A stretch of 60,854 bases of DNA from Bolinopsis microptera (Eukaryota > Ctenophora > Tentaculata > Lobata > Bolinopsidae), in contig NW_026971787.1 in the NCBI RefSeq assembly GCF_026151205.1, positions 1 through 60,854 of the forward strand. The letters run 5' to 3'. The position numbers and the translations under genes were made by a program. This document shows positions 734-60,854 of this stretch, piece by piece. The notes under the pieces were generated by a model. That model saw only the letters and a list, made by a program, of their open reading frames with translations. It had not been told where the DNA came from and ran no database searches. Positions within the stretch are counted from its first letter, which is position 1. Each line of letters starts with the position of its first letter.

Positions 734-930
734 CTGCGATATCTGGATAAAGATTACTAAGTTAAACCAAATATTTTATGTAATTAACCTTAATCTGAGG
801 TCTGTAAATATGATTCTGTACATGAAATAGAATACAAAATCTCCAATAAATCAGTATACCGTTTTTGCTTATCGACCTCACTCGGTTTTAAGGGCGCTAA
901 AATTAACCTTTTCCTCCTAGATTTACTCAC

Positions 931-1370
931 TGTTATTGGAATTGCTGGTAATACTAGCTGCTCTCAAATGGTCGTACAGTCCAGGATCAGTGCCCTGCTG
1001 TGCAGTGACCAGACCATGTGTTCGTGGTGCTACCATGGGAACCATCCCCTGGCTGTGAGCAGCTACCATGGGAACCATCCCCTGGCTGTGAGCAGCTGCC
1101 ATGGGAACCATCCCCTGGCTGTGAGCAGCTGCCATGGGAACCATCCCCTGGCTGTGAGTAGCTGCCATGGGAACCATCCCCTGGCTGTGAGCAGCTGCCA
1201 TGGGAACCATCCCCTGGCTGTGAGCAGCTGCCATGGGGTCCATTACTTGGTTCCGGGGCACTACCATAGGGTGTAAGGGGGAGATGGGACCGTTCATCAG
1301 CGGTCTGGAGTGACGGATCGAGTGACTGCCGTTTATCTTTATCATGACATTATCCATCATGGGTCCACTT
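931..1370 (-). CDS. NAV-like: navigator-like gene, exon with 11-residue repeats
   Basis: This 440-bp exon has acceptor TTATCTCCCCAG and donor AACA|GTGAGT. The two-base overhang of the previous exon plus A gives Lys and enters the frame exactly. It reads SGPMMDNVMIKINGSHSIRH, followed by about six copies of an 11-residue repeat with consensus GMVPMAAAHSQ, then a Gly/Leu tail ending SITSNSNN. The repeat is encoded by 33-bp DNA units, so it keeps frame. The other strand is also open through the repeat (CHGNHPLAVSS units), but that frame lacks splice support and is taken as a shadow. The exon exits in phase 1. Confidence 0.85.
1031..1235. repeat. 33-bp coding tandem repeat
   Basis: Six near-identical 33-bp units start at 1031, 1064, 1097, 1130, 1163 and 1196, plus a partial one. 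They lie wholly inside exon 931-1370 and encode the 11-residue repeat. Each unit carries two ATG-type CCATGG or CCAT cores. Divergence between units is one or two bases. Confidence 0.95.
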
Positions 1371-1429
1371 CTGGGGAGATAAGGTTAATTTGCAGGTATT
1401 CCTCCCAGTGACCGGTGACGCTATTGTTC

Positions 1430-1520
1430 TAGACCTCGTTACCTAGTAACCACTGCAACCTAGTAACCACTGTAACCTAGTAAACACTGTAACCTAGTAA
1501 CCACTGTAACCTAGTAGCTA
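1430..1520. repeat. 17-bp tandem repeat
   Basis: Four to five copies of CCTAGTAACCACTGTAA in the intron after exon 2780-2925. The array is bracketed by direct copies of CTATTGTTCTAGACCTC (about 1422 and 1519), as if one duplication enclosed the array. Confidence 0.85.
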
Positions 1521-1815
1521 TTGTTCTAGACCTCTATTATAATGAGATCATACTTGAACGCCTGCTCAAATAGATATTCAGAGTCAAAATAGAAAGTGCA
1601 AGTTAAGTGAAAATAGAAAGTGAAAGTACAAAATAGAAAGTACAGAGTACAAGAAAAGAATGTAATAAAATTCCAACCTTCTTAAACTGAGCGTTTGAGC
1701 ACGTTTAAAATCACTCCTTGTATTCTGTGAGTTGTAGTTCTCACTGAAAATAAGAGATTGTAACAAGCCAATTCAAAAGTCAAATAAAAGGGTAACTACT
1801 ACTGCAAAGTAGAAC

Positions 1816-2780
1816 GTTACGTGGGGGAGGGGGGGGGAGGGGGGGGGGGGGTACCAAACCATAAATCACTTATTCTGAGGGGGGGGGGGGGTACCAAACC
1901 TTAACTAACTTATTCTGAGAGGGGGGGGGGGGGTACCAAACCTTAACTAACTTATTCTGAGGGGGGGGGGGTACCAAACCTTAAATCACTTATTCTGAGG
2001 GGGGGGGTACCAAACCATAAATCACTTATTCTGAGGGGGGGGGGGGGTACCAAACCTTAACTAACTTATTCTGAGAGGGGGGGGGGGGTACCAAACCTTA
2101 ACTAACTTATTCTGAGGGGGGGGGGTACCAAACCATAAATCACTTATTCTGAGGGGGGGGGGGGCCGGGGGGGTACCAAACCATAACTCACTTATTCTGA
2201 GGGGGGGGGTACCAAACCTTAACTAACTTATTCTGAGAGGGGGGGTACCAAACCTTAACTAACTTATTCTGAGAGGGGGGGGGGGGGGTACCAAACCTTA
2301 AATCACTTATTCTGAGGGGGGGGGGGGGGGGGGGGTACCAAACCATAACTCACTTATTCTGAGGGGGGGGGGGGTACCAAACCATAAATCACTTATTCTG
2401 AGGGGGGGGGGGGTACCAAACCATAACTCACTTATTCTGAGGGGGGGGGGGTACCAAACCTTAGCTAACTTATTCTGAGAGGAGGGGGGGGTACCAAACC
2501 TTAACTAACTTATTCTGAGAGGGGGGGGTACCAAACCTTAAATCACTTATTCTGAGGGGGGGGGGGGTACCAAACCATAAATCACTTATTCTGAGGGGGG
2601 GGGGGGTACCAAACCATAACTCACTTATTCTGAGGGGGGGGGGGTACCAAACCTTAGCTAACTTATTCTGAGAGGAGGGGGGGGGTACCAAACCTTAACT
2701 AACTTATTCTGAGAGGGGGGGGTACCAAACCTTAAATCACTTATTCTGAGGGGGGGGGGGGTACCAAACCATAACTCACT
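1816..2780 (-). repeat. tandem array of a 5' splice-site segment with C-tracts
   Basis: There are about 24 units of roughly 36-44 bp, varying mainly in the length of a C-run (G-run on the plus strand). On the gene strand each reads CTCAGAATAAGT, then one of three continuations (GAGTTATGG, GATTTATGG/GATTTAAGG, or TAGTTAAGG), then TTTGGTACC and the C-run. The first unit is the real end of exon 2780-2925 plus its donor AATAA|GTGAGT. About five units keep GTGAGT exactly, and many others have GTTAGT. The array is therefore an amplified exon/intron boundary inside the intron. Confidence 0.95.
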
Positions 2781-2925
2781 TATTCTGAGACTCTCTAATC
2801 TTCCTCTGGCCGATCTGAATAATCCCCTCGTCGTCCATATCCTGGTCTTCTATAATAACGGGAGTGTCTGGAGACAGATCAAATGAGTTGGGACGTTTGG
2901 GTCGACTTCCTGTTGGAGATAGTAC
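2780..2925 (-). CDS. NAV-like: navigator-like gene, exon whose end seeds an array
   Basis: This 146-bp exon has acceptor TACTTCCCCAG and donor AATAA|GTGAGT. Phase 0 in, phase 2 out. It encodes a Pro/Ser stretch (VLSPTGSRPKRPNSFDLSP), an acidic patch (IIEDQDMDDEG), then IIQIGQRKIRESQN. There is no known domain, and it is probably disordered apart from the last basic helix. The last 10 or so bases of the exon, together with the donor, are the unit of the tandem array that starts here and runs to about 1816. Confidence 0.85.
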
Positions 2926-3413: not shown

Positions 3414-5580
3414 TTATTCTCGGTAGTTGATTTGTTGAGTGCCTGATCTTGCTGATTTACGTAGCCCGGGTAAATTATGTAACAGAAAAGTTGGCCATTC
3501 TTCATCGTTTCCTGAGCTTTGTAGTTCTATCATTACACGCTTTGCTGATTTCTTATAAATGCTTATTGAGAAAATGCTAGATGGGCAAGTTATGCGACTA
3601 ATGTTGTGCTCGGTAATAGCTAATATTGGACCTTTATACAGAACACTAGCGCGTAGATCTGGTTGAGAGTACGTTGTTAGCCAGTCGATATTGTCGTCAT
3701 AAGATGTGCCATACTTTGGTAAATCGGGAGGAAATAAGTCTTTTATCGACGACGGCAGAAGGCCAGGCATGTAATTTATCTTGTGCATCAGAGTCAGAGC
3801 ATTTTTTATGATTACCCCGTGTACAGTTAATATTTCGTACTCTTTAAACGTAGCTTTAGTATGATCCGGAAGTTTACCATCTTTGTAATAGTAATTCACG
3901 TAACCCGGCATAACTGCTCGTATTCCTTGTTTTTGTTTAGTGAACAGTGAGTTAATATGAGATTTTGCAGCAAAACCCCAAACGAGCGAACAGAAATTTA
4001 AGTGAGATTGTACAAAACTTTGGAAGATCTGTAAGCGTGCTTTGATTGGTAATTTGCGTTTTATTTTGAACATAACACCTATAAACCGTGACATTTTTGT
4101 TTTGACAGCACGAATGTGGCTGGCCCAGTTTAGTTTGTCGTCGACGATAACTCCTAAAAATCTGGCCTCCGTTTTGCGTTCAATAGGAGTGTTGTCAATT
4201 CTTACCTGTAGAGACGATAGGTCTACCCGTCTTTTTGAAAATACCATATAGCAAGTCTTCTTCAAATTAAGAGCTAAGCCGTTTGAGTAAACCCATTTTA
4301 TCAACACATCAGTGAGGTGGTCGATTTTGGATACAATTTCTTGTATATTTGATCCGGTGATAATTATATTTGCATCGTCTGCGTATAATATAAATTTAGC
4401 TAAGTTACTGATTCCTGGTAAGTCATTGATATATATAACGAAAAGCAGGGGGCCTAATATGCTACCTTGTGGAACACCGTATACCATAGATTCTAATGAT
4501 GAATTGGAGCCGTTCAAGGAGACAAATTGACTGCGACCATTAAGGTATGACTCGAACCATTTCAAGGCAATGCCGCGAATACCGTAATGCTCAAGTTTCC
4601 TGAGTAATGTCGCGTGATCTAGGACGTCAAATGCCTTACTATAGTCTAAAAGTAATAGTAGTGTTATTTGGTTCTTATTTAGGGAATGCAGAATGGAGCT
4701 CTGAGCATTGAGAAGCGCATGCTCGCATGATCTTCCTGGTCGGAATCCGTATTGATTCTCGAATAGTGAGTTATTCTTGTCGAGAAATTCTAATACCCGC
4801 CTGTGCATGAGTTTTTCGTAAATTTTTGAGAACGAGCCCAAAAGCGAGATAGGTCTATAATTTGCTACGTCGAGTTTGGAACCTCCTTTGTGTATAGGTG
4901 TAACTTTTGCGGTTTTCAGAGCTTTAGGGAAAGTTCCCTCTGCAAAAGATGTGTTGACTACTGATGCAAAGGTACATACAAAATTTTGGCATGTGCTAGC
5001 TATTTTCAAAGGCTCAATTTTTGAATCGAGAGTTGCCTTATTTTTGAGGCCAATAATAATTCTATGTATCTCGATAGGTGTCGCAGGTTCAAGGTAGATA
5101 GACGTTGGACATGACCCGGTCAGATAGTCCTGGAACCCCCCAGGATCGAAGGTCTGTCGGGAACTGATCTGAGACTTGATGTTGGCTGCGATGCTGGAAA
5201 AGTAGCCATTAAACTTTTCAGCGACAGCCGAGTTAGTACTCAGGATCGTCCCGTCAGTATCCCTCAATCTAATCTGATCAGATCCCCGTCTTTTTCTGTT
5301 TAGCAGGCCGTTGATTATCTCCCATTGTTTTTTGGAACAGTCCTGATATTTTTCAAATTGTTTTTTGTAATACCGCTCCTTGGCAAGATTAACGTGTTTA
5401 CTGCAAAATAATTTCATTTTATCGTATGCGGCTATGTTTTCATAAGTAGGCTCAGTGATATTCAGATGATATAAATGCTGTTTACGTGAGCAGGCCGTTT
5501 CGAGCCATGGAAGTATCCACGGCTTCGGATCAGACCGTTCATTTTCGCGACGACTACGATTGCTCTTAACGGGGTATGCA
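3414..5580 (-). CDS. LINE copy A ORF2, reverse transcriptase part
   Basis: This is the continuation of ORF2 after the Penelope insertion. RT motifs are in order: ANYRPISLLGSFSKI, NQYGFRPGRS, DYSKAFDVLDH, GVPQGSILGP and the catalytic YADDANIII. These are followed by a thumb and C-terminal region to about 3414. The frame has no stops or shifts, so apart from the insertion this domain looks intact. It differs from copy B at only a handful of residues. Confidence 0.92.
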
Positions 5581-5592
5581 GTGTTGTAATGT

Positions 5593-7440
5593 GGTGGATT
5601 CGTGTAGTGTTTTTGAGTCTCATGATTTGATAGTTCTTTTATTCAAATTTCTGATTGTTTCTGAATAGACTCAGTGAAGACAAATTCTAATGGAAATAAA
5701 TAGCTGAATAACGTATCGACATTTCTACGTCATACTCATATTCTGAAATAGTATTAATTCAATTATAACGATCAATATTCACATTAAAAATTTGACGACG
5801 AAATTTATTTCAAACAAAATATATAACTGTAAAATAGTTATCAACCGTAAATAGTTTTTAACGAAATACGGTCTCCATCTCTCTGATTTACAAGAACTAC
5901 TAGAGACAACCCTAGGAAAGTCATATTTTGTCTACAACAATCAAGTCTACCTACAGCTTCTTGGATTGTTCATGGGAACCAACCCTGCACCTATACTAGC
6001 TACTGTCAAAATGTGGAAACTGGAAAAACTTTCAGTCTACGTAGACCTGAGGATAACACTGCCCACCTACAGCAGGTTTTACGACGATCTAAACGGAGCC
6101 ACCACCAACAGACGAAAAGCTCAGCAACTGTGCAACCTCATCGAACAACAAGATCCTGACAAACTTATCAAACTAACTGTAGACTACCCTGACAATCAGA
6201 ACGACTTTGTTCCCTTCCTCAACACGGAAATAAAGATCGACTCAGATGGAATAGTACATTCTAGACTCTACAGAAAACCACAGAAAAAGCCACTCACCCT
6301 CCACTACAACTCTCATCATACAACACGTACAAAGAATGCTACTGTTGAGAGTATGTACAACACCGCAGAGGCAGTCTCTAACAACAGAGAAAACGAGAAG
6401 TACTCAGAAAAGATGATAGATAAACTTCTCATCAACAACGGCTACACTGATAGAGTCTTAGAAACCATAAAGAACAAGAGAAAACGTAGAAAGAGAATTA
6501 ATCAGAACGTACAGAACAAAGACCAAGACGGAGCGATTCTCAAACTACCCTATGTCAACGAAGCTACTAGTCGCAAATACAGAGATGCTGTCAGACATAG
6601 TGGACTCCCCATCAAAATTGTCGAGAAACCTGGACGGAAACTGAAGGATCTCCTTACAGACTCCAGACCCCTTGACAAGAAATCCTGTACAACATCAAAC
6701 TGCAGAACATGCGCAGCTTTAACCGATGGAGAATGCACCACAACTAATACCGTCTACCACATCACTTGCGAAGTAGACAATTGTACCGAGAACTATGGTG
6801 GGGAAACATACAGACCGATCAAGTGCAGGTTCGACGAGCATTACCGTAGTGCGGCAAATCCAACAGCAAAATCTTACGAAGATAAGCCACTAGCAAAGCA
6901 CTACAGGGAAAGTCACCCTCAGCACAAAGGCCCCCCAAAGCTTAAACTTCAAATCGTAGATAGAGGAACATCACTCATCAACAGAAAGATTAAAGAAGCC
7001 CGATTTTTAGTTGAAAATAAACCAACACTCAACGATAAAACAGAGTTGAACAATCTAACACAGTTTTTAGTTGAGTGACGTGTAAATAGTAATATTCTCG
7101 TTTAATTCTTTTATCTCTTTTAATCTTTTATCTCCTGTATAACGCCACGCTATTCGTTAATTTTCAGATGAGCCCAATTTTGTCAGTTTTATGTTCATAT
7201 TTGCTCCGATTTCGTTAAAAACTATTTACGGTTGATAACTATTTTACAGTTATATATTTTGTTTGAAATAAATTTCGTCGTCAAATTTTTAATGTGAATA
7301 TTGATCGTTATAATTGAATTAATACTATTTCAGAATATGAGTATGACGTAGAAATGTCGATACGTTATTCAGCTATTTATTTCCATTAGAATTTGTCTTC
7401 ACTGAGTCTATTCAGAAACAATCAGAAATTTGAATAAAAG
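5593..7440 (+). mobile_element. Penelope-like element inserted in LINE copy A
   Basis: It is flanked by a 12-bp direct duplication GTGTTGTAATGT (5581-5592 and 7440-7451). The same 12 bases occur once at the matching place in copy B. Inverted repeats of about 232 bp (5636-5867 and 7209-7440) bracket the ORF, with a 43-bp extension outside the left one. Inverted terminal repeats plus a short tail are typical of Penelope-like elements. At under 1.9 kb it is 5'-truncated. Confidence 0.9.
5876..7078 (+). CDS. Penelope-like RT C-terminus with GIY-YIG endonuclease
   Basis: The open frame continues upstream of the first ATG (5966) into LSDLQELLETTLGKSYF. The catalytic palm reads SRFYDDLNG in place of the usual YVDD context. 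A lysine-rich linker and a CTTSNCRTC zinc-like linker follow. Next comes the GIY-YIG nuclease: VYHITCEV, NYGGETYRPIKCRFDEH, with the conserved Glu in IKEARFLVENKPTLND. The N-terminal RT fingers are missing. It ends with TGA at 7078. Penelope-like enzymes copy RNA and cut target DNA with the GIY-YIG domain. Confidence 0.9.
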   Translation, partial: HLSDLQELLETTLGKSYFVYNNQVYLQLLGLFMGTNPAPILATVKMWKLEKLSVYVDLRITLPTYSRFYDDLNGATTNRRKAQQLCNLIEQQDPDKLIKLTVDYPDNQNDFVPFLNTEIKIDSDGIVHSRLYRKPQKKPLTLHYNSHHTTRTKNATVESMYNTAEAVSNNRENEKYSEKMIDKLLINNGYTDRVLETIKNKRKRRKRINQNVQNKDQDGAILKLPYVNEATSRKYRDAVRHSGLPIKIVEKPGRKLKDLLTDSRPLDKKSCTTSNCRTCAALTDGECTTTNTVYHITCEVDNCTENYGGETYRPIKCRFDEHYRSAANPTAKSYEDKPLAKHYRESHPQHKGPPKLKLQIVDRGTSLINRKIKEARFLVENKPTLNDKTELNNLTQFLVE

Positions 7441-7451
7441 TGTTGTAATGT

Positions 7452-8720
7452 TTCATGTAGATTTCTGAGAATTTATCATACTGTTCATTTGCACAGCCTG
7501 ATTCCCGCGCTTCCTCCCACGTCTCCCCTTCCAATAGCTCCTTGAAGATGGCATTGTTGGCTTCATTAATAGTACGTGTTTGACGATATTTTGTGGTATT
7601 GGTCCTATTCGAGTGTGTGGTGTGCTTTTGTGATACTGCACGTAGCTTTATAGTGGCTAGTGTTGCAAGATGATCAGAGATGTCGAGTGTTAGAACGTTA
7701 CTACTTAATGTGTTTTCAATATTATTTGTGTAAACATGGTCAATAAGGGTGGCACTGTGGTCAGTGACTCGTGTTGGTTTGGAAACTGTTTGAGCAAAAC
7801 CATATTTTGCCAGTGTATCAATGAGGTTCTGGCTTGAGGAATCGGTGTCATATTTGATAAGATCAATATTTGCATCGCCATGAAACATAACGTGTTTGCG
7901 TGAGTGTCTATCTAGTCTATTGAGTACGTGATCGAGTAAGCTAATGAAATTATTAGTATCTCTTGACGGTGATCTGTAGAAATTTACTATTACCTTCGTT
8001 TTGTTAAGACCTTTGCAGTTATGAATTTTGACTAGTTGAAACTCGCCACTCATATCTTCAGGATCCAGAGCTAAGTCAATACGTTCAATTTTCTCGAAAT
8101 CGCACACGCGTTTATTTATATAAATTGCTAACCCACCTCCTCTCCCCGATTTCCTCAAAGGTGCTTGTATAACAGGTTCGTGAAAACCCTCGATCATGAT
8201 ATCATCAATACCATTAGGCAGCTTATCAATGTTACAGTTAGTTTCATTAAAGCATAATACATCGCATTTTGAGAAGGTGTGGATTTCTTCTCTGAGATAT
8301 GTTATGTTTTTTGCTAGTGATCGTATATTTAATGAAAGTGCTTCTAACTCGTCCTTGGCGGAGTTTGTAACGTTTTTAGGTTCTTGATATTTGCACTTGG
8401 TTAGGATTTCGCTTATTTCATTCCAGTATTCGTTGTTTGTGTCACTGTTCTGATCTAAACTATTGCCAATGGAATTTATTAAGTGCGAGCGATCATATGG
8501 ATTGAAACTAAGACGTGATGCGTTAAGGTGGTCGAACTTATCATAGAGATCGAATGTATCTACATTGTAACCAGGAATAATTGATTCGCAACATCTGATG
8601 CAACCTAAAGTTTCCTGGAAACATTTCTTGTGCACAGGGCCCTCGCACCATGCACAAGTACGCAGGTTAGACTTAGAGTAACACCAACCCGGACAGGCCG
8701 TGCATTTGATTTTTATTTTT
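7452..8720 (-). CDS. LINE copy A ORF2, N-terminal part (Cys-rich motif and endonuclease)
   Basis: It begins near a Cys/His cluster (KCTACPGWCYS, TCAWC, HKKCF, CIRCC) like a PHD or RING zinc module. The apurinic-type endonuclease follows: LSLNIRSLAKN, a catalytic ETN, GRGGGLAIYINK, GDANIDLI and the SDHLATL block. The upstream frame has a stop and no clear ATG, so the true start is uncertain. The ORF breaks after MKHYNT, where the Penelope-like element inserted. It resumes at 5580 as AYPVKSN. Confidence 0.85.
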
Positions 8721-9553
8721 GACTATTGCTGACTTCACCATTAGTGTTCATGAAGTTGATAAATAAAGCTGATAAAATTCCGTTATGATTTGGTTAGTCA
8801 AAAGAAAAATGTATATGATAAATGTATATTGCTATAATTATATATATGAAAGTCAGACCTGCTTCGCGAAAACTAACAGTTTTGTGTGCTAACAGATCCT
8901 GACTGATATTCTAACTAACTAATAATCTAAACTAATCCAAACTATCTATTTAAAAATAAAAATAAAAAAAAACAAAAACTAACTAACTAGCAAGCGAGTA
9001 TGCTCGGAGAGCAAGTAACTTATACTGAAACTGTGATGAAACGTGTAGCTTAAACTTTAATGTAGCTTAACTTCAACTGTACGAAATTGACTTTTGCGAG
9101 GACAACGGAATGTGGATCAGTCAAAAGAGTAATACGGTGGAGTCATGTTTGTCTAGTAGTAAAGCAGAAGTTAGTCAAACGTCAAAAGTTAGGTGTATTG
9201 TCACTGAAATTTAATGATTTCTGTATTAGTACAATATAGTAAAATGTGCTATGGGCAATGTATTTTATTGTGTAGATAGTGTATCAAAATTTCGATTTTA
9301 AGTGTTTAAGTGTTTATTACCAATAATGTTACATAGGGGACTGTAATTACTGATTAGGATAACTGATAAGCTTTATTTTGATTACTGATAAGACGGGTTA
9401 TAGTATGAAAGGTGTGAGTGTGTAACTTGTTAAGATACGACTTGTTTTAAGGTTTTAAATTTGCCGTGCTACGTTGACTTGGTTTGAAATATGTTTGCAG
9501 ATCAGTCTTTTTGTTTAGTATTGGTATTGACAATAGTTTTATTTATTCAATTC

Positions 9554-38401: not shown

Positions 38402-39804
38402 CTGCAGAAGTGAGCTTAGTCAGGGCTACATTTCAGAAGTGAGCTTAGTCAGGGCTACATTTCAGAAGTGAGCTTAGTCAGGGCTACATTTCAGAAGTGA
38501 GCTTAGTCAGGGCTACATTCAGAAGTAAGCTTAGTCAGGGCTACATTTCAGAAGTGAGCTTAGTCAGGGCTACATTCAGAAGTAAGCTTAGTCAGGGCTA
38601 CATTTCAGAAGTGAGCTTTGTCAGAGCTACATTTCAGAAGTGAGCTTAGTCAGGGCTACATTTCAGAAGTGAGCTTAGTCAGGGCTACATTTCAGAAGTG
38701 AGCTTAGTCAGGACTACATTTCAGAAGTGAGCTTAGTCAGGACTACATTTCAGAAGTAAGCTTAGTCAGGGCTACATTTCAGAAGTGAGCTTAGTCAGGG
38801 CTACATTTCAGAAGTGAGCTTAGTCAGGGCTACATTTCAGAAGTGAGCTTAGTCAGGAATACATTTCAGAAGTAAGCTTAGTCAGGACTACATTTCAGAA
38901 GTGAGCTTTGTCAGAGCTACATTTCAGAAGTGAGCTTTGTCAGGACTACATTTCAGAAGTGAGCTTAGTCAGGACTACATTTCAGAAGTGAGCTTTGTCA
39001 GAGCTACCTGCTACATTTCAGAAGTAAGCTTTGTCAGGGCTACATTTCAGAAGTGAGCTTAGTCAGGGCTACATTTCAGAAGTGAGCTTAGTCAGGGCTA
39101 CATTTCAGAAGTGAGCTTAGTCAGGGCTACATTTCAGAAGTGAGCTTAGTCAGGGCTACATTTCAGAAGTGAGCTTAGTCAGGGCTACATTTCAGAGGTG
39201 AGCTTAGTCAGGACTACATTTCAGAAGTAAGCTTAGTCAGGACTACATTTCAGAAGTGAGCTTAGTCAGGACTATATTTCAGAAGTAGGCTTAGTCAGGA
39301 CTACATTTCAGAAGTGAGCTTAGTCAGGGCTACATTTCAGAAGTGAGCTTAGTCAGGGCTACATTTCAGAAGTAAGCTTAGTCAGGGCTACATTTCAGAA
39401 GTGAGCTTAGTCAGGGCTACATTTCAGAAGTGAGCTTAGTCAGGGCTACATTTCAGAAGTAAGCTTAGTCAGGGCTACATTTCAGAAGCGAGCTTAGTCA
39501 GAGCTACATTTCAGAAGTAAGCTTAGTCAGGACTACATTTCAGAAGTGTTCTTTGTCAGAGCTACATTTCAGAAGTGAGCTTTGTCAGGACTACATTTCA
39601 GAAGTGAGCTTAGTCAGGACTACATTTCAGAAGTGAGCTTTGTCAGAGCTACCTGCTACATTTCAGAAGTAAGCTTTGTCAGGGCTACATTTCAGAAGTG
39701 AGCTTAGTCAGGGCTACATTTCAGAAGTGAGCTTAGTCAGGGCTACATTTCAGAAGTGAGCTTAGTCAGGGCTACATTTCAGAGGTGAGCTTAGTCAGGA
39801 CTAC
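38402..39804 (-). repeat. 29-bp array seeded at a 3' splice site (part 1)
   Basis: There are about 48 units of GTGAGCTTAGTCAGGGCTAC plus ATTTCAGAA (plus strand). On the gene strand each unit reads CTGACTAAGCTCACTTCTG, a branch-point-like TGACTAA followed by the pyrimidine-rich stretch that precedes the real CAG acceptor of exon 38326-38401. The array starts at that acceptor. Variants (GGACTAC, TTTGTCAG, GAGCTAC) recur in blocks. LINE copy B interrupts it. Confidence 0.95.
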
Positions 39805-42800
39805 GAATACTGGAATGAAATAAGCGAAATCCTAACCAAGTGCAAATATCAAGAACCTAAAAACGTTACAAACTCCGCCAAGGACGAGTTAAAAGCACTT
39901 TCATTAAATATACGATCACTAGCAAAAAACATAACATATCTCAGAGAAGAAATCCACACCTTCTCAAAATGCGATGTATTATGCTTTAATGAAACTAACT
40001 GTAACATTGATAAGCTGCCTAATGGTATTGATGATATCATGATCGAGGGTTTTCACGAACCTGTTATACAAGCACCTTTGAGGAAATCGGGGAGAGGAGG
40101 TGGATTAGCAATTTATATAAACAAACGCGTGTGCGATTTCGAGAAAATTGAACGTATTGACTTAGCTCTGGATCCTGAAGATATGAGTGGCGAGTTTCAA
40201 CTAGTCAAAATTCATAACTGCAAAGGTCTTAACAAAACGAAGGTAATAGTAAATTTCTACAGATCACCGTCAAGAGATACTAATAATTTCATTAGCTTAC
40301 TCGATCACGTACTCAATAGACTAGATAGACACTCACGCAAACACGTTATGTTTCATGGCGATGCAAATATTGATCTTATCAAATATGACACTGATTCCTC
40401 AAGCCAGAACCTCATTGATACACTGGCAAAATATGGTTTTGCTCAAACAGTTTCCAAACCAACACGAGTCACTGACCACAGTGCCACCCTTATTGACCAT
40501 GTTTACACAAATAATATTGAAAACACATTAAGTAGTAACGTTCTAACACTCGACATCTCTGATCATCTTGCAACACTAACCACTATAAAGCTACGTGCAG
40601 TATCACAAAAGCACACCACACACTCGAATAGGACCAATACCACAAAATATCGTCAAACACGTACTATTAATGAAGCCAACAATGTCATCTTCAAGGAGCT
40701 ATTGGAAGGGGAGACGTGGGAGGAAGCGCGGGAATCAGGCTGTGCAAATGAACAGTATGATAAATTCTCAGAAATCTACATGAAACATTACAACACTGCA
40801 TACCCCGTTAAGAGCAATCGTAGTCGTCGCGAAAATGAACGGTCTGATCCGAAGCCGTGGATACTTCCATGGCTCGAAACGGCCTGCTCTCGTAAACAGC
40901 AGTTATATCATCTGAATATCACTGAGCCTACTTATGAAAACATAGCCGCATACGATAAAATGAAATTATTTTGCAGTAAACACGTTAATCTTGCCAAGGA
41001 GCGATATTACAAAAAACAATTTGAAAAATATCAGGACTGTTCCAAAAAACAATGGGAGATAATCAACGGCCTGCTAAACAGAAAAAGACGGGGATCTGAT
41101 CAGATTAGATTGAGGGATACTGACGGGACGATCCTGAGTACTAACTCGGCTGTCGCTGAAAAGTTTAATGGCTACTTTTCCAGCATCGCAGCCAACATCA
41201 AGTCTCAGATCAGTTCCCGACAGACCTTCGATCCTGGGGGGTTCCAGGACTATCTGACCGGGTCATGTCCAACGTCTATCTACCTTGAACCTGCGACACC
41301 TACCGAGATACATAGAATTATTATTGGCCTCAAAAATAAGGCAACTCTCGATTCAAAAATTGAGCCTTTGAAAGTAGCTAGCACATGCCAAAATTTTGTA
41401 TGTACCTTTGCATCAGTAGTCAACACATCTTTTGCAGAGGGAACTTTCCCTAAAGCTCTGAAAACCGCAAAAGTTACACCTATACACAAAGGAGGTTCCA
41501 AACTCGACGTAGCAAATTATAGACCTATCTCGCTTTTGGGCTCGTTCTCTAAAATTTACGAAAAACTCATGCACAGGCGGGTACTAGAATTTCTCGACAA
41601 GAATAACTCACTATTCGAGAATCAATACGGATTCCGACCAGGAAGATCATGCGAGCATGCGCTTCTCAATGCTCAGAGCTCCTTTCTGCATTCCCTAAAT
41701 AAGAACCAAATAACACTACTATTACTTTTAGACTATAGTAAGGCATTTGACGTCCTAGATCACGCGACATTACTCAGGAAACTTGAGCATTACGGTATTC
41801 GCGGCATTGCCTTGAAATGGTTCGAGTCATACCTTAATGGCCGCAGTCAATTTGTCTCCTTGAACGGCTCCAATTCATCATTAGAATCTATGGTATACGG
41901 TGTTCCACAAGGTAGCATATTAGGCCCCCTGCTTTTCGTTATATATATCAATGACTTACCAGGAATCAGTAACTTAGCTAAATTTATATTATACGCAGAC
42001 GACGCAAATATAATTATTACCGGATCAAATATACAAGAAATTGAATCCAAAATCGACCACCTCACTGATCTGTTGATAAAATGGGTTTACTCAAACGGCT
42101 TAGCTCTTAATTTAAAGAAGACTTGCTATATGGTATTTTCAAAAAGACGGGTAGACTTATCGTCTCTACAGGTAAGAATTGACAACACTCCTATTGAACG
42201 CAAAACGGAGGCCAGATTTTTAGGAGTTATTGTCGACGACAAACTAAACTGGGCCAGCCACATTCGTGCTGTCAAAACAAAAATGTCACGGTTTATAGGT
42301 GTTATGTTCAAAATAAAACGCAAATTACCAATCAAAGCACGCTTACAGATTTTCCAAAGTTTTGTACAATCTCACTTAAATTTCTGTTCGCTCGTTTGGG
42401 GTTTTGCTGCAAAATCTCACATTGACTCACTGTTCACTAAACAAAAACAGGGAATACGAGCAGTTATGCCGGGTTACGTGAATTACTATTACAAAGATGG
42501 TAAACTTCCGGATCATACTAAAGCTACGTTTAAAGAGTATGAAATATTAACTGTACACGGGGTAATCATAAAAAACGCTCTGACTCTGATGCACAAGTTA
42601 AATTACATGCCTGGCCTTCTGCCGTCGTCGATAAAAGACTTATTTCCTCCCGATTTACCAAAGTATGGCACGTCTTATGACGACAATATCGACTGGCTAA
42701 CAACGTACTCTCAACCAGATCTACGCGCTAGTGTTCTGTATAAAGGTCCTATATTAGCTATTACCGAGCACAACATTAGTCGCATAACTTGCCCATCTAG

Positions 42801-42963
42801 CATTTTCTCAATAAGCATTTATAAGAAATCAGCAAAGCGTGTAATGATAGAACTACAAAGCTCAGGAAACGATGAAGAATGGCCAACTTTTCTGTTACAT
42901 AATTTACCCGGGCTACGTAAATCAGCAAGATCAGGCACTCAACAAATCAACTACCGTGAATAA
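39805..42963 (+). CDS. LINE copy B ORF2, endonuclease and reverse transcriptase
   Basis: About 1052 codons are open from the truncation point; the first ATG is at 40039. Endonuclease: ALSLNIRSLAKN, CFNETNCN, GRGGGLAIYINK, GDANIDLI and SDHLATLT. RT: ANYRPISLLGSFSKI, NQYGFRPGRSCEHA, DYSKAFDVLDH, GVPQGSILGP and YADDANIII. The thumb and C-terminus end in TAA after INYRE. The N-terminal zinc-like motif present in copy A is missing. No stop or shift, so the loss is only the 5' end. Confidence 0.93.
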   Translation, partial: EYWNEISEILTKCKYQEPKNVTNSAKDELKALSLNIRSLAKNITYLREEIHTFSKCDVLCFNETNCNIDKLPNGIDDIMIEGFHEPVIQAPLRKSGRGGGLAIYINKRVCDFEKIERIDLALDPEDMSGEFQLVKIHNCKGLNKTKVIVNFYRSPSRDTNNFISLLDHVLNRLDRHSRKHVMFHGDANIDLIKYDTDSSSQNLIDTLAKYGFAQTVSKPTRVTDHSATLIDHVYTNNIENTLSSNVLTLDISDHLATLTTIKLRAVSQKHTTHSNRTNTTKYRQTRTINEANNVIFKELLEGETWEEARESGCANEQYDKFSEIYMKHYNTAYPVKSNRSRRENERSDPKPWILPWLETACSRKQQLYHLNITEPTYENIAAYDKMKLFCSKHVNLAKERYYKKQFEKYQDCSKKQWEIINGLLNRKRRGSDQIRLRDTDGTILSTNSAVAEKFNGYFSSIAANIKSQISSRQTFDPGGFQDYLTGSCPTSIYLEPATPTEIHRIIIGLKNKATLDSKIEPLKVASTCQNFVCTFASVVNTSFAEGTFPKALKTAKVTPIHKGGSKLDVANYRPISLLGSFSKIYEKLMHRRVLEFLDKNNSLFENQYGFRPGRSCEHALLNAQSSFLHSLNKNQITLLLLLDYSKAFDVLDHATLLRKLEHYGIRGIALKWFESYLNGRSQFVSLNGSNSSLESMVYGVPQGSILGPLLFVIYINDLPGISNLAKFILYADDANIIITGSNIQEIESKIDHLTDLLIKWVYSNGLALNLKKTCYMVFSKRRVDLSSLQVRIDNTPIERKTEARFLGVIVDDKLNWASHIRAVKTKMSRFIGVMFKIKRKLPIKARLQIFQSFVQSHLNFCSLVWGFAAKSHIDSLFTKQKQGIRAVMPGYVNYYYKDGKLPDHTKATFKEYEILTVHGVIIKNALTLMHKLNYMPGLLPSSIKDLFPPDLPKYGTSYDDNIDWLTTYSQPDLRASVLYKGPILAITEHNISRITCPSSIFSISIYKKSAKRVMIELQSSGNDEEWPTFLLHNLPGLRKSARSGTQQINYRE

Positions 42964-45918: not shown

Positions 45919-46063
45919 CAACTAGTTCGATGATAACAGCGAATATAACTCCAGATTTGAAATCATTTGTCACAGAGATTACTCGAGTTGAATACGATTT
46001 GTTTGCAAGCCACTCATTTACCCAATCAGTATACTCCTGGAAATAGGTATCGTCATGGCAAAC
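45919..46063 (-). CDS. NAV-like: navigator-like gene, CH domain exon 1
   Basis: This 145-bp exon has acceptor ACTATACTAG and donor TTG|GTAAGT. It is 48 codons plus one base, phase 0 to phase 1. It encodes the start of a calponin-homology domain: a YTDWVNEWL helix followed by FKSGVIFAVIIELV. From memory, NAV2/NAV3 have YTDW..N..LA and then DGVLLAQIIQVV at the same places. CH domains of this type bind actin or microtubule-associated partners in the cytoplasm, and navigators steer cell and axon migration. The sequence is divergent, so another single-CH cytoskeletal protein is possible. The exon itself is well supported by both splice sites and by frame. Confidence 0.85.
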
Positions 46064-46864: not shown

Positions 46865-48694
46865 TCAATTGTCTTGCGTAGTCTTAACTGCCCTCAAACT
46901 TTTTCTGTTCCATGCACGTTTTGCTTTTCTGTACTTTTTTTTTCGGTGTAATTGACAGTCATTTTCTAAGGAGCGTTTTGAACTTTGTGTAGAGTGCCCA
47001 TCATCGCTTGACGAATTCATCCTCTCGGCCATGTCACTTAGTCTTGCACTTTGTCTTCGAATTTCAGCACTTTCAACCAATTCACGCTGAAACACTTCAC
47101 TTTTAATCACTTCTTTTTGAACTTCAGTACTTTCGATCACCGTACTTTCAACTAGTACAGAAAATTCAATCACAGCATTCTTAACCTCAGCAGTATCTAC
47201 CACAGCACTTTCAACCTCAGCAGTATCAACCACAGCACCTTCAACCTCAGCACTTTCAACCTCAGCAGTATCTACCACAGCACTTTCAACCTCAGCAGTG
47301 TCAACCACAGCACTTTCAGCCTCAGCAGTATCAACCACAGCAGTATCAACCACAGCACTTTCAACCTCAGCAGTATCAACCACAGCACTTTCAACCTCAA
47401 CACTTTCAACCTCAGCAGTATCAACCACAGCAGTACAAACAACAGCAGTATCAACCTCAGCAGTACAAACAACAGCAGTATCAACCTCAGCAGTATCAAC
47501 CACAGCACTTTCAACCTCAGCAGTATCAACCACAGCAGTACAAAAAACATCAGTATCAACCTCAGCAGTATCAACCACAGCACTTTCAACCTCAACACTT
47601 TCAACCACATCACTTTCGACCTCAACACTTTCCTGTTGAATTGGTGCAGTATCCGAGACTTCCTGAGAATTTTCAGTAACCAAATTTATTTCATTGTTGC
47701 TCAGCCAATTATCAGCTTCCTTTAAAAACTCATAATCAGAATCAAAAGAATTGTGATGACTGCTTGCTAATAAGGCTGACAACTTTATTAACTTTGGTGC
47801 TTTTGCTGGCTGCTCATGATCATCTTGTCTTGGTATAACATAGTTGTCTGTTTTCACAGGGAAAATTGTTTCTGTAACTGCATAATTTTCTGTTTTTTTA
47901 GTTATAATAGTTTTATTCACTAAGGCAGAACTTTCAGCATTCATTGCAACATTACTTTCACTGACTGAAGAAGCATTTTCTGCATTCAACGTGATTGCAT
48001 TACTATTGGGTAGAGCAGGATTCTCAGCATTGGTTGGTAGAATTTCACTATTCAAAGAATCTTCCTTGGATTCATTTTGATGATTTTGGTTAAACACTTC
48101 TTTGATCTGGAGCTGAATGGAATGTTTATCATTGTTTTTGATAGTAGTAGTCTCAGTGCTTTTTGCTAACCCTACACAAGAATTGACATCAACTGAATTA
48201 TCTCTGTTACCTGGAATCACACATTCATCTGTGTTGTCACTTATATCCTCAATTACAGTAAGGGGGTTGTTTGTGATGTCCGATAAGTACACTTCAGGGG
48301 TACCAGCATTATGATTAGAATGTTTTAAAGCCAGCAAACTGTCACAATTAACTGTTTCACTGAAAGGCATCTGACAGTCAGTTTGTACTGTCGCAGAACT
48401 GCTGCTTTCAGATCTGCTGACAAATAGTAGATAATCCCATGGGCAATGCTGAGGCATTCTCTTATAATTATTCTTCAGAAGTATAGTCACATTCAATAGT
48501 ATATCATTAATGAATACCTTGTACTCATTCAAAACTCTGCATGTAAAAAATTCTTTAAGGAAAGCTTCTGTTATCCTGTCGATATCTGACGATGACGAAG
48601 TGTCAAGCGTATCATTGAAGTGGATGCAACAATGAAAACATGTGTCTCCAATGTTAAATATTCTGTTAAATGATTGATATTCTGGATCCTCCAT
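46865..48694 (-). CDS. 609-residue repeat protein of unknown family
   Basis: A single long frame runs from ATGGAGGATCC to TAA. The N-terminal 140 residues look folded (SFNRIFNIGDTCFHCCIHF, ITEAFLKEFF, YKVFINDILLNVTILL, HCPWDYLLFV) with three nearby Cys. The middle is Ser/Asn/Glu-rich. Residues about 345-530 are repeats of VESAVVDTAEV type, coded by 15- and 30-bp units. The C-terminus is basic (HRKKKYRKAKRAWNRK). I do not recognise the family; it may be a host gene or a mobile-element protein, since part of it is duplicated nearby. No introns are needed. It lies upstream of the navigator-like gene on the same strand. Confidence 0.7.
   Translation of the reverse strand: MEDPEYQSFNRIFNIGDTCFHCCIHFNDTLDTSSSSDIDRITEAFLKEFFTCRVLNEYKVFINDILLNVTILLKNNYKRMPQHCPWDYLLFVSRSESSSSATVQTDCQMPFSETVNCDSLLALKHSNHNAGTPEVYLSDITNNPLTVIEDISDNTDECVIPGNRDNSVDVNSCVGLAKSTETTTIKNNDKHSIQLQIKEVFNQNHQNESKEDSLNSEILPTNAENPALPNSNAITLNAENASSVSESNVAMNAESSALVNKTIITKKTENYAVTETIFPVKTDNYVIPRQDDHEQPAKAPKLIKLSALLASSHHNSFDSDYEFLKEADNWLSNNEINLVTENSQEVSDTAPIQQESVEVESDVVESVEVESAVVDTAEVDTDVFCTAVVDTAEVESAVVDTAEVDTAVVCTAEVDTAVVCTAVVDTAEVESVEVESAVVDTAEVESAVVDTAVVDTAEAESAVVDTAEVESAVVDTAEVESAEVEGAVVDTAEVESAVVDTAEVKNAVIEFSVLVESTVIESTEVQKEVIKSEVFQRELVESAEIRRQSARLSDMAERMNSSSDDGHSTQSSKRSLENDCQLHRKKKYRKAKRAWNRKSLRAVKTTQDN
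47105..47640. repeat. coding tandem repeat, 15/30-bp units
   Basis: Units of CAGTATCAACCACAG and CACTTTCAACCTCAG alternate inside the 609-residue ORF. The plus strand (STTALSTSAV repeats) and a third frame are also open but have no other support. Confidence 0.9.
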
Positions 48695-51265: not shown

Positions 51266-51528
51266 CTTTAGTATCCGTGTGGCTAGGAACCTACAATATT
51301 TTGCTGAAAAACTATGTTTATGCTGAAAACCGAAGTGATACATAATCTGTATTGTCTTTTCTGGGAATTTCTTTTATATAAATGTCGCCATAATTTGGTC
51401 ATGGTATGGAATGTATCAAAGAACTTATAAGAACATTATCCATATGCTTTCACGAACAAGGTTACATGCAAGCACAAGGGCTCTGGATAGAGCAAACAAG
51501 AACGTACAAATTTCTTCGGAATGACCAT

Positions 51529-51985
51529 TGCTATGATTAGAATGTTTTAAAGCCAGCAAGCTGTCACAATTAACTGACTGTGTCTCACTGAAAGGCATCT
51601 GACAGTCAGTTTGTACTGTCGCAGAAATGCTGCTTTCAGATCTGCTGACAAATAGTAGATAATCCCATGGGCAATGCTGAGGCATTCTCTTATAATTATT
51701 ATTCTAAAGTATAGTCACATTTAATAGTATATCATTAATGAATACCTTGTACTCATTCAAAACTCTGAATGTAAAAAATTCTTTAAGGAAAGCTTCTGTT
51801 ATCCTGAAAAAAAAAATATCTGATGATGACGAAGTGTCAAGTGTATCATTGAAGTGGATGCAACAATGAAAACATGTGTCTCCAATGTTAAATATTCTGT
51901 TAAATGATTGATATTCTGGATCCTTCATTTAAGAGAATATCACACGACACACTATGGCCATACTGACTGAAAAATTTTAAAATGT
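51529..51985 (-). pseudogene. truncated, frameshifted copy of the 609-residue gene
   Basis: Matches 48309-48760 (N-terminal part and about 80 bp upstream) with few changes: EYQSFNRIFNIGDTCFHCC, KEFFTFRVLNEYKVF, MPQHCPWDYLLFVSRSES. An inserted A-run (TTTTTTTTT on the gene strand at about 51806) and a small deletion before MPQHC change the reading. The similarity stops sharply at both ends, so this is a segmental copy, not a whole gene. Confidence 0.85.
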
Positions 51986-52592: not shown

Positions 52593-53195
52593 GTAGTGCG
52601 CCATCGACATTGAGCCGCGCGTGCCGACTGTAGGATGGTTTTTTAGCGCTTATTTCGGCCAGCACAATTTTCTTCAAAGAAATAGATATTAAGTATTCTT
52701 TCCGACCTCCGATTGCAACAAAAATTGGTAAGATTACTCATAGACTTACAAGGAAAGTGTCCGAAAAGTTTAAAGCATATCCAACCATCAAACATTATGT
52801 TACAGCTAAAACCAGCGTATTTTGCCCCATTTTGATCACTATATCAACTCCGATATCCACCAAATTTTTCGGACAGTTGTGAAAGCCCTATTGGAAGGTC
52901 GTTGCCAATTTTCAGAATGATCTCATTTAAGGAACTGAAGATATATCCAAATAATACGACAAAAATCAACGAATTTGGTCGAATTTGGTCAAATTTGGTC
53001 AAATTACGCGACTTTTACAACTAATTTTGCTCCAAAAGCCGCGCACCATCAAATATGGCACCTAGGCGAAACTCACTGATCTTTCCAAAAAGGTATGACA
53101 AATTTGGTATTGTGAAAATTCTCACAGTCTCTAGAAAACAATGGTACAAAAATTTGTAAAATCCGAGCAAGTTTATTTTTATGGTGCACCCCTAG
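52591..53195. mobile_element. 0.6-kb segment with short inverted ends inside telomeric repeat
   Basis: Left end AGGTAGTGCGCCAT and right end ATGGTGCACCCCTAG (complement CTAGGGGTGCACCAT) are imperfect inverted repeats directly next to TTAGGG tracts on both sides. The interior has no ORF. A repeated AATTTGGTC (52970-53005) is the only internal structure. Read as a non-autonomous element in a telomeric array. Confidence 0.45.
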
Positions 53196-53270
53196 TTAGG
53201 GTTAGGGTTAGGGTTAGGGTTAGGGTTAGGGTTAGGGTTAGGGTTAGGGTTAGGGTTAGGGTTAGGGTTA
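53196..53270 (+). repeat. interstitial telomeric tract 2
   Basis: About 12 perfect TTAGGG units in the same orientation as tracts 1 and 3, ending GGGTTA right at the inverted end of the 7.4-kb segment. Confidence 0.95.
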
Positions 53271-60489: not shown

Positions 60490-60698
60490 AAAAATTTTTA
60501 GTTGATATTCCGGTGTCTGTAGATGTCCGAAGTTTTGGCAGTAAAGTGCTCACAACACAGCTTCTGAAGGCTCTAGAAGGTTCCCGATACCGTCAGAGTG
60601 TTCAGTACACTCCATACTATCATATAGGAACCCTAAAAGAAGTCCCAGGGCTCGTGCAGAAAAGCGTGATATTTGCCCGTAACAGCCTCTACTATTAG
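60490..60698 (+). CDS. unassigned terminal ORF
   Basis: Open from about 60490 (TTQKKFLVDIPVSVDVRSFG) to a stop at the telomere boundary: SKVLTTQLLKALEGSRY, HIGTLKEVPGLVQ and IFARNSLYY. No family is recognised. Its last codons are the inverted end of the 7.4-kb segment, so it may belong to that element. Confidence 0.3.
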
Positions 60699-60854
60699 GG
60701 TTAGGGTTAGGGTTAGGGTTAGGGTTAGGGTTAGGGTTAGGGTTAGGGTTAGGGGTTAGGGGTTAGGGTTAGGGTTAGGGTAGGGGTAGGGTAGGGTTAG
60801 GTTAGGGTTAGGGTTAGGGTTTGGGGTTTGGGTTAGGGGGTTTTTGGTTGGGTT
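60695..60854 (+). repeat. terminal telomeric tract
   Basis: TTAGGG repeats are perfect up to about 60750, then increasingly irregular (TTAGGGG, TAGGGG, TTTGGGG, TTGG) to the window edge. G-strand to the right fits a right-hand chromosome end. Confidence 0.93.

Follow-up and report, generated by a model that had tools for sequence, protein, structure and literature searches.

Why should an intron begin with two dozen copies of a 5' splice site? The question is raised by a 60,854-nt stretch of DNA from the ctenophore Bolinopsis microptera (NW_026971787.1; the whole stretch is called the window), for which the original prediction described a tandem array of about 24 duplicated donors next to the authentic one. 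The array lies in a gene read from the minus strand. A coding exon of 146 nt (2780–2925, minus strand), preceded by the acceptor ...TTCCCCAG, contains a single open frame, VLSPTGSRPKRPNSFDLSPDTPVIIEDQDMDDEGIIQIGQRKIRESQN plus AA, and the other two frames carry stops. The following intron of 1409 nt (1371–2779, minus strand) contains the array and, between it and the acceptor CTTATCTCCCCAG, a further 450 nt or so. The terminal coding exon (SGPMMDNVMIKINGSHSIRHSRPLMNG..., 923–1370, minus strand) belongs to an ORF of 923–1384 whose stop is at 923–925. The exon 2780–2925 ends in phase 2 and the terminal exon opens with the matching base, giving an in-frame lysine at the junction AA/A (...RESQN-K-SGPMMDNV...). 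The authentic 5' splice site, AATAA/GTGAGT (2774–2779, minus strand), is assigned by this phase match, and its donor is of the top-scoring type in the array. With its single open frame and matching phase, the exon 2780–2925 is left intact by the array. The terminal exon has a repeat of its own, an in-frame 33-bp unit at 1029–1237 (AAAHSQGMVPM, 6.3 copies, 98% matches). The joined exons (2780–2925 and 1370–923) gave no Pfam match, their first 101 residues gave no PDB match, and a search of the genome for a paralogue returned self-matches only. Since the gene lacks a recognised homologue, several of the other loci described below have exons that are better established than the one here.

The surroundings are rich in repeats. 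Directly upstream of the exon 2780–2925 lies one of two copies of a non-LTR retrotransposon (3414–8722, minus strand, and 39766–42963, plus strand), both with endonuclease and reverse-transcriptase ORFs whose translations are nearly alike. The first copy is interrupted by a plus-strand ORF (5855–7078) whose match to GIY-YIG is very weak (E 0.063). A 609-aa ORF (46865–48694, minus strand) contains a long VDTAEVESAVV-type repeat, and part of its N-terminal text recurs in diverged form at 51425–51703 (minus strand). A perfect interstitial GTTAGG array is found at 53195–53270, and a TTAGGG array in telomere orientation at 60695–60838, at the right end. The window thus looks like a small subtelomeric contig.

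Tandem Repeats Finder placed the donor array at 1842–2790 and counted 24.0 copies of a 39-bp unit; a 116-bp period is superimposed on it, an order far beyond chance. Cutting the minus strand into units also gave 24 of them, which agrees with the predicted number. The 23 complete ones are 36–48 nt long and the last merges into a degenerate C/T-rich tract (1816–1850, minus strand). In minus-strand sense each unit reads AATAAGTNANNTANGGTTTGGTAC, a C-run whose longest stretch is 7–20 nt, and (T)CTCAG; the next copy of AATAA and a GTGAGT-like donor follow (TATGGTTTGGTAC). Unit 0 is the end of the exon 2780–2925 with its donor GTGAGT (2779–2774), and 23 copies come after it, each repeating the last 10–11 nt of the exon, the donor and the C-run. 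Both the predicted make-up of the unit, an exon end and donor separated by C-runs, and the presence of decoy splice sites downstream of a real-looking, phase-matched exon/intron junction are therefore borne out by the units themselves. On the G strand, 16 of the 26 G-runs of at least 6 nt within 1816–2790 reach at least 11 G, and folding of an 80-nt stretch with the G4 option and RNA energies placed one G-quadruplex in it. We read the array as mutational instability at an exon-intron junction that is tolerated by splicing.

Two other explanations of the unit itself were eliminated. The unit pattern matched the 264.65-Mb genome 24 times, every match falling in the window array (the reversed control gave 0), so a dispersed element such as an introner or mobile intron is ruled out. 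A recursive splice site or zero-length exon is ruled out by the 5 nt that separate AG from GT in CTCAG-AATAA-GTGAGT.

The anatomy of the array recurs across the genome with unrelated units. Arrays that copy the end of an exon together with its 5' splice site were found in at least 27 places, spread over 11 of the 13 large contigs (15–26 Mb) and C28. Three pairs among the 27 are segmental duplicates (C11, C6 and C3/C5), which leaves about 24 genes; these include genes for AKT-like kinase, SLC6-like, SLC7-like, SHMT, gephyrin-like and selenoprotein-S-like products. The 27 comprise 19 arrays with a tabulated exon overlap and L099, L100, L101, L103, L104, L106, L108 and L119. Exons lacking a Pfam match were judged by eye, as an open frame ending at the donor with an acceptor upstream; L088, within the 27, and L094, outside them, are probable only. 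Across the 19 tabulated arrays the median exon overlap is 5–42 nt, reaching at least 20 nt in five (L074, L075, L079, L083 and L089), and 1–35 decoys were counted in the stretches read, numbers that cover the fetched stretch and are lower bounds where an array continues.

The loci came from several searches. Sequence similarity to the window array retrieved other G/C-run arrays with unrelated units, a set biased by having been picked for likeness to the window unit. Genome-wide counts were then obtained for patterns of two donors separated by a homopolymer run; these count units and not arrays, so a few long arrays dominate them. GTAAGT with a G-run gave the only clear excess, 122 matches vs 2 for the reversed pattern. 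GTGAGT gave 137 vs 168 with a G-run and 17 vs 16 with a C-run, and GTAAGT with a C-run gave 52 vs 14, mostly from one array. Among the matches listed, 17 of 23 arrays were examined for GTGAGT/G-run and 12 of 12 for GTAAGT/G-run; for GTGAGT/C-run all six were examined and for GTAAGT/C-run none. Of 34 pattern-found arrays, 22 have, by eye, an exon-like frame that stays open up to the 5'-most donor and a unit that repeats the end of that exon (L088 and L094 being probable cases); three lie at the acceptor of an opposite-strand exon, and the junction is absent or ambiguous in nine. When the longest frame running to the 5'-most array donor was scanned, 6 of 28 arrays gave a Pfam hit at E<=1e-3, the two kinase families being counted as one member; at the other 6 of the 34 array loci the frame was too short to scan. 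At other GTRAGT sites of the window the figure was 1 of the 39 frames kept after those shorter than 20 aa were dropped. That sole control match, a weak calponin-homology hit below the cut-off (E 4.2e-4) in an exon-like frame to a GTRAGT donor at 45920–46063 (minus strand), may be a true exon.

Not every array touches a junction. No splice site was found at the edges of L004, L007 and L066 (similarity search), of L036 and L067 (C10NCAG search) or of L069 (C-run search), and the array of L008 lies 95 nt from an acceptor. Among the three loci of the C-run search, the array of L068 ends 19 nt before an exon, L069 has no exon in sight and L070 has no array. Elsewhere among the similarity hits, a G/C-run array starts at intron nt 8 in a TRAPP-family gene (TRAPP 2.9e-20) and another at intron nt 11 after the exon MPAQYLKNEE. 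Acceptors can be copied as well: at a further such hit, a 5'-nucleotidase-family exon (1.3e-14), an array crosses the acceptor, giving 13 acceptors including the authentic one. Enrichment of C-runs followed by an acceptor CAG is ruled out (C10NCAG, 1834 matches vs 2787 for the reversed control). So is a general unit class of C-run acceptor, N5 and GTRAGT donor, whose four matches are three from the window array and a single C6 site.

Another possibility is that the window array is an ordinary intronic minisatellite in a minisatellite-rich subtelomere, touching the exon by coincidence. In its favour, tandem arrays number in the dozens in the 60-kb window, whose right end carries a telomere-like repeat. 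A pattern free of donors, three consecutive A+G9 runs, gave 922 matches vs 355 reversed. From at least 24 such arrays on C1 and C2, leaving out short-period, poly-G, telomere-near and inverted-repeat-like ones, 15 newly fetched arrays and 2 known ones were examined. Six of the 15 have no exon nearby and four are ambiguous by eye, as coincidence would have it. Two copy an exon end and its donor (an SHMT exon and an aminopeptidase-like exon), and three end 12–41 nt before an acceptor (L106, L111 and L113). Together with the 2 known arrays, 7 of 17 thus touch a splice junction or come within 45 nt of it, which speaks against coincidence, as does the copying of exonic sequence right up to the border in the window and in at least 26 other arrays. 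We therefore regard a chance contact as unlikely. An excess of donors over acceptors is unsupported by these data, most arrays having been picked by donor patterns and the donor-free sample being about equal.

The individual arrays differ in size and purity. At C1:803k, a locus from the C10NCAG search, the donor of an SLC7-like exon and the last 19 nt before it make up the unit, with 31 copies of the exon end, 30 of them followed by a donor as CAG/GTTAGT. At C11:355k, a similarity hit, an exon end and GTGAGT are copied 15 times, the SHMT array has 7 identical decoys, and the aminopeptidase-like exon, which has no Pfam match, contributes about 6 nt to its array. The L106 exon-end array (787–1101), CTTAGTTACCAG/GTAATATAC, has a 21-bp unit and 12 identical donors but no homopolymer run; such a run is therefore usual but unnecessary. 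The gephyrin-like intron (L104 and L071, G000:C2:1634300-1636500) starts with a donor-copy array, and a second array adjoins its acceptor. L068 (G000:C1:40200-42600) contains an exon end and donor in triplicate, as large tandem copies with (AACCTAGT)n, and also a C-run array that stops just before the next acceptor. The inverted duplicates on C11 are 95% identical over a 510-nt flank and have 15 vs 7 decoys; those on C6 (90% over the longest alignment, 93–95% in flank pieces) have 3 vs 15 decoys in the stretches read. The duplications are thus old enough for array length to have changed since, and within one assembly such differences are a proxy for polymorphism of intron length between individuals.

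Do the decoys serve a function? Donors in the window were scored with human donor frequencies. On these weights the authentic type, GTGAGT, scores 3.63 bits and falls in the top 1.2% of all GT dinucleotides in the window. It is present in units 0, 4, 9, 11 and 15, in line with the expectation that several units, here 5 of 24 or 4 of the 23 decoys, keep a perfect GTGAGT. The other types, GTGATT (9 units), GTTAGT (8) and GTTAGC (2), have scores of −0.14, −0.69 and −2.16. The prediction that some decoys are better and some worse than the authentic donor thus holds for the worse ones (19 of 23) and fails for the better ones (none, with 4 of 23 equal), as judged with the human weights. The first perfect decoy, in unit 4, lies 155 nt downstream of the authentic donor. 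Four of the 24 core positions vary, or 4 of 29 non-run positions when CTCAG, constant in the 23 complete units, is included. All four fall inside a 7-nt span, donor +3 to +9; enumeration gives so short a span a probability of 0.020, with the units treated as independent although they are related.

The coding effect of the decoys is uniform. Read past the authentic donor, the exon frame continues AAG TGA, with the stop starting at intron nt 2, so that the same truncated protein, ending in ...ESQNK, results whichever decoy is used and also if the intron is retained. Of the proline-rich repeats or stops proposed for decoy use, only the stops are found; proline-rich isoforms (GTPPPLRISE) are ruled out by the TGA in the exon's only open frame, from which they cannot be reached. 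A read-through stop also occurs within 49 intron nt at 7 of 11 loci tested, in the SLC7-like gene at intron nt 3, and at nt 84–226 in the other four.

Such stops would suit a splice buffer or rheostat, in which decoys compete for U1 and the length of the array sets the level of productive mRNA. Classical duplicated-donor experiments predict competition from strong downstream copies, and identical decoys are numerous elsewhere: 29 of 29 in the SLC7-like array, 34 of 35 on C13 and 19 of 19 on C10, with 15/15, 19/22, 12/15 and 11/20 in others. The evidence from the window points the other way. Its share of identical donors (4/23) is the lowest among arrays with more than 10 decoys, 19 of the 23 are weaker, and donor +3 to +6 is the variable part of the unit, which leaves a selected version of the proposed buffer unsupported. 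This concentration of variation in the donor argues against selection to keep the decoys. It would also fit selection weakening them, which is inseparable here from drift in a homogenising array. Short arrays at other loci are mostly altered too (identical donors 1 of 4 at L078, 1 of 4 at L083 and 5 of 10 at L097), and the identical donors of the long arrays can stem from concerted turnover. A regulatory rheostat therefore has, in our view, a slim chance of being correct.

A different order of events is conceivable, in which the array began as an intronic repeat and the border of the exon shifted into it afterwards, recruiting a donor from the repeat. The window gene would allow this order, sharing only 10–11 nt of exon with its array and having no recognised relative. 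The recognisable genes speak against it. Pfam matches at donor-copy arrays include Pkinase (1.8e-31), SNF (5.9e-23), AA_permease (7.2e-7) and SHMT (1.3e-25), and MoCF (1.3e-13) was matched by the exon after the gephyrin-like junction; FXa_inhibition (2e-5), SelS (6.9e-6), IU_nuc_hydro (1.7e-5) and Tectonin (3.7e-4) are all below the Pfam curated cut-offs. When exons of the kinase, SNF, permease and SelS genes are joined via the exon-proximal donor, the Pfam match spans the junction. At the kinase, SHMT, SLC6-like and SLC7-like loci the copied part is coding sequence in or next to the Pfam match, which makes the exon the likely source at these loci. We regard an array-first origin as very improbable. 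An assembly artefact is scarcely credible: C-runs of 7–20 nt are error-prone, but the base variants of the units are ordered, a 116-bp period overlies them, and arrays of the same build are found on 11 of 13 large contigs.

We favour as the probable explanation a minisatellite that was seeded over the exon-intron border ('exon stuttering'), grew by way of its G/C tract and was tolerated, with splicing mainly at the exon-proximal donor. The copied block starts in the edge of the exon and crosses the donor, and the same anatomy is present at about 24 loci. In the window, a short segment comprising the last 10–11 nt of the exon, the donor and the intronic C/G tract would have been duplicated in tandem and amplified to 24 copies, leaving the intron with the 23 extra copies of the 5' splice site that it carries today. 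The array may have grown because its homopolymer G/C tract is unstable, through slippage or, by analogy with the minisatellites CEB1 and CEB25 (PMC5491262, PMC3486850), through a G-quadruplex on the G strand. Some arrays might have begun by microhomology between exonic and intronic G tracts. An exonic G tract of at least 3 nt was seen by eye at the unit boundary in 7 of the 18 other tabulated arrays, so this route is plausible for some arrays and not for all. A duplication across the donor leaves the exon and the first donor intact, and the array probably survives because of this. The pre-mRNA would be spliced mainly at the exon-proximal donor; transcripts using a decoy or retaining the intron, with their one stop after ...ESQNK, would be candidates for nonsense-mediated decay and not a source of new protein.

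Some human introns are reportedly derived from tandem arrays, a junction-spanning tandem duplication supplying the splice sites. The present case is unlike introns born in that way, in that an existing intron is filled with donor copies and its acceptor does not come from the unit. In human genes of segmental duplications, internal tandem repeats with units of about 30 bp lie partly at exon-intron boundaries and affect splicing (PMC2812944). The unit size and the position are alike, but the human repeats number four on average and their described effects are novel introns and amino-acid repeats. The minisatellites CEB1 and CEB25 are likewise G-rich tandem arrays prone to rearrangement and, in the accessible portions of the reports, are not described as tied to splice junctions (PMC5491262, PMC3486850).

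The closest published match is exon stuttering on the chicken dot chromosomes, and the window array is of the same kind in a distant genome, with a G/C-run hallmark. In 115 chicken genes, mostly on GC-rich dot chromosomes, an exon edge and its donor or acceptor are repeated in tandem across the adjacent intron; the exon is intact and the copies are of local origin, the source lying at most 1 base from the border in >90% of cases (PMC12954441, Genome Biol Evol 2026). Copies there number 1–44 (median 4) and include 20–187 bp of exon (median 36), and the study terms the instability novel, ties it to GC-rich dot chromosomes and states, with data not shown, that other vertebrate genomes except gerbils were not found to have it (PMC12954441). 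The window repeat likewise copies the adjacent exon edge with its splice site, 23 times. Set against the bird study (PMC12954441), it differs in that its exon part of 10–11 nt is below the chicken range, that the unit here usually contains a homopolymer G or C run, and that the host is an invertebrate with arrays on 15–26 Mb contigs and not on GC-rich dot chromosomes. The GC content is 38.6% in the window and 45.8% at the fetched array loci, or 40.2% when G/C runs of at least 6 nt are removed. In a licence-limited collection of the junction-repeat, intron-gain and ctenophore-repeat literature, the accessible texts yielded the same many-copy anatomy outside birds and gerbils in no case, and PMC12954441 alone matched.

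On a bolder view, productive splicing at dozens of genes would be set by array length, a heritable dial that mutates fast, in a lineage whose spliceosome is unusually strict in choosing the exon-proximal among up to 35 identical donors. We consider this distinctly unlikely; if true, it would mean that 5' splice sites are amplified in place genome-wide, including at some conserved genes, with decoy use leading to a stop and decay. On the reading favoured here, junction-seeded repeats tolerated by splicing, stuttering at conserved genes on large invertebrate chromosomes weakens the link to dot chromosomes and suggests that what the cases share is local G/C tracts and tolerance at the junction. 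The arrays also offer introns with anything from 2 to 35 identical 5' splice sites, a natural series in which the spliceosome's choice among equal donors, an old question, becomes testable.
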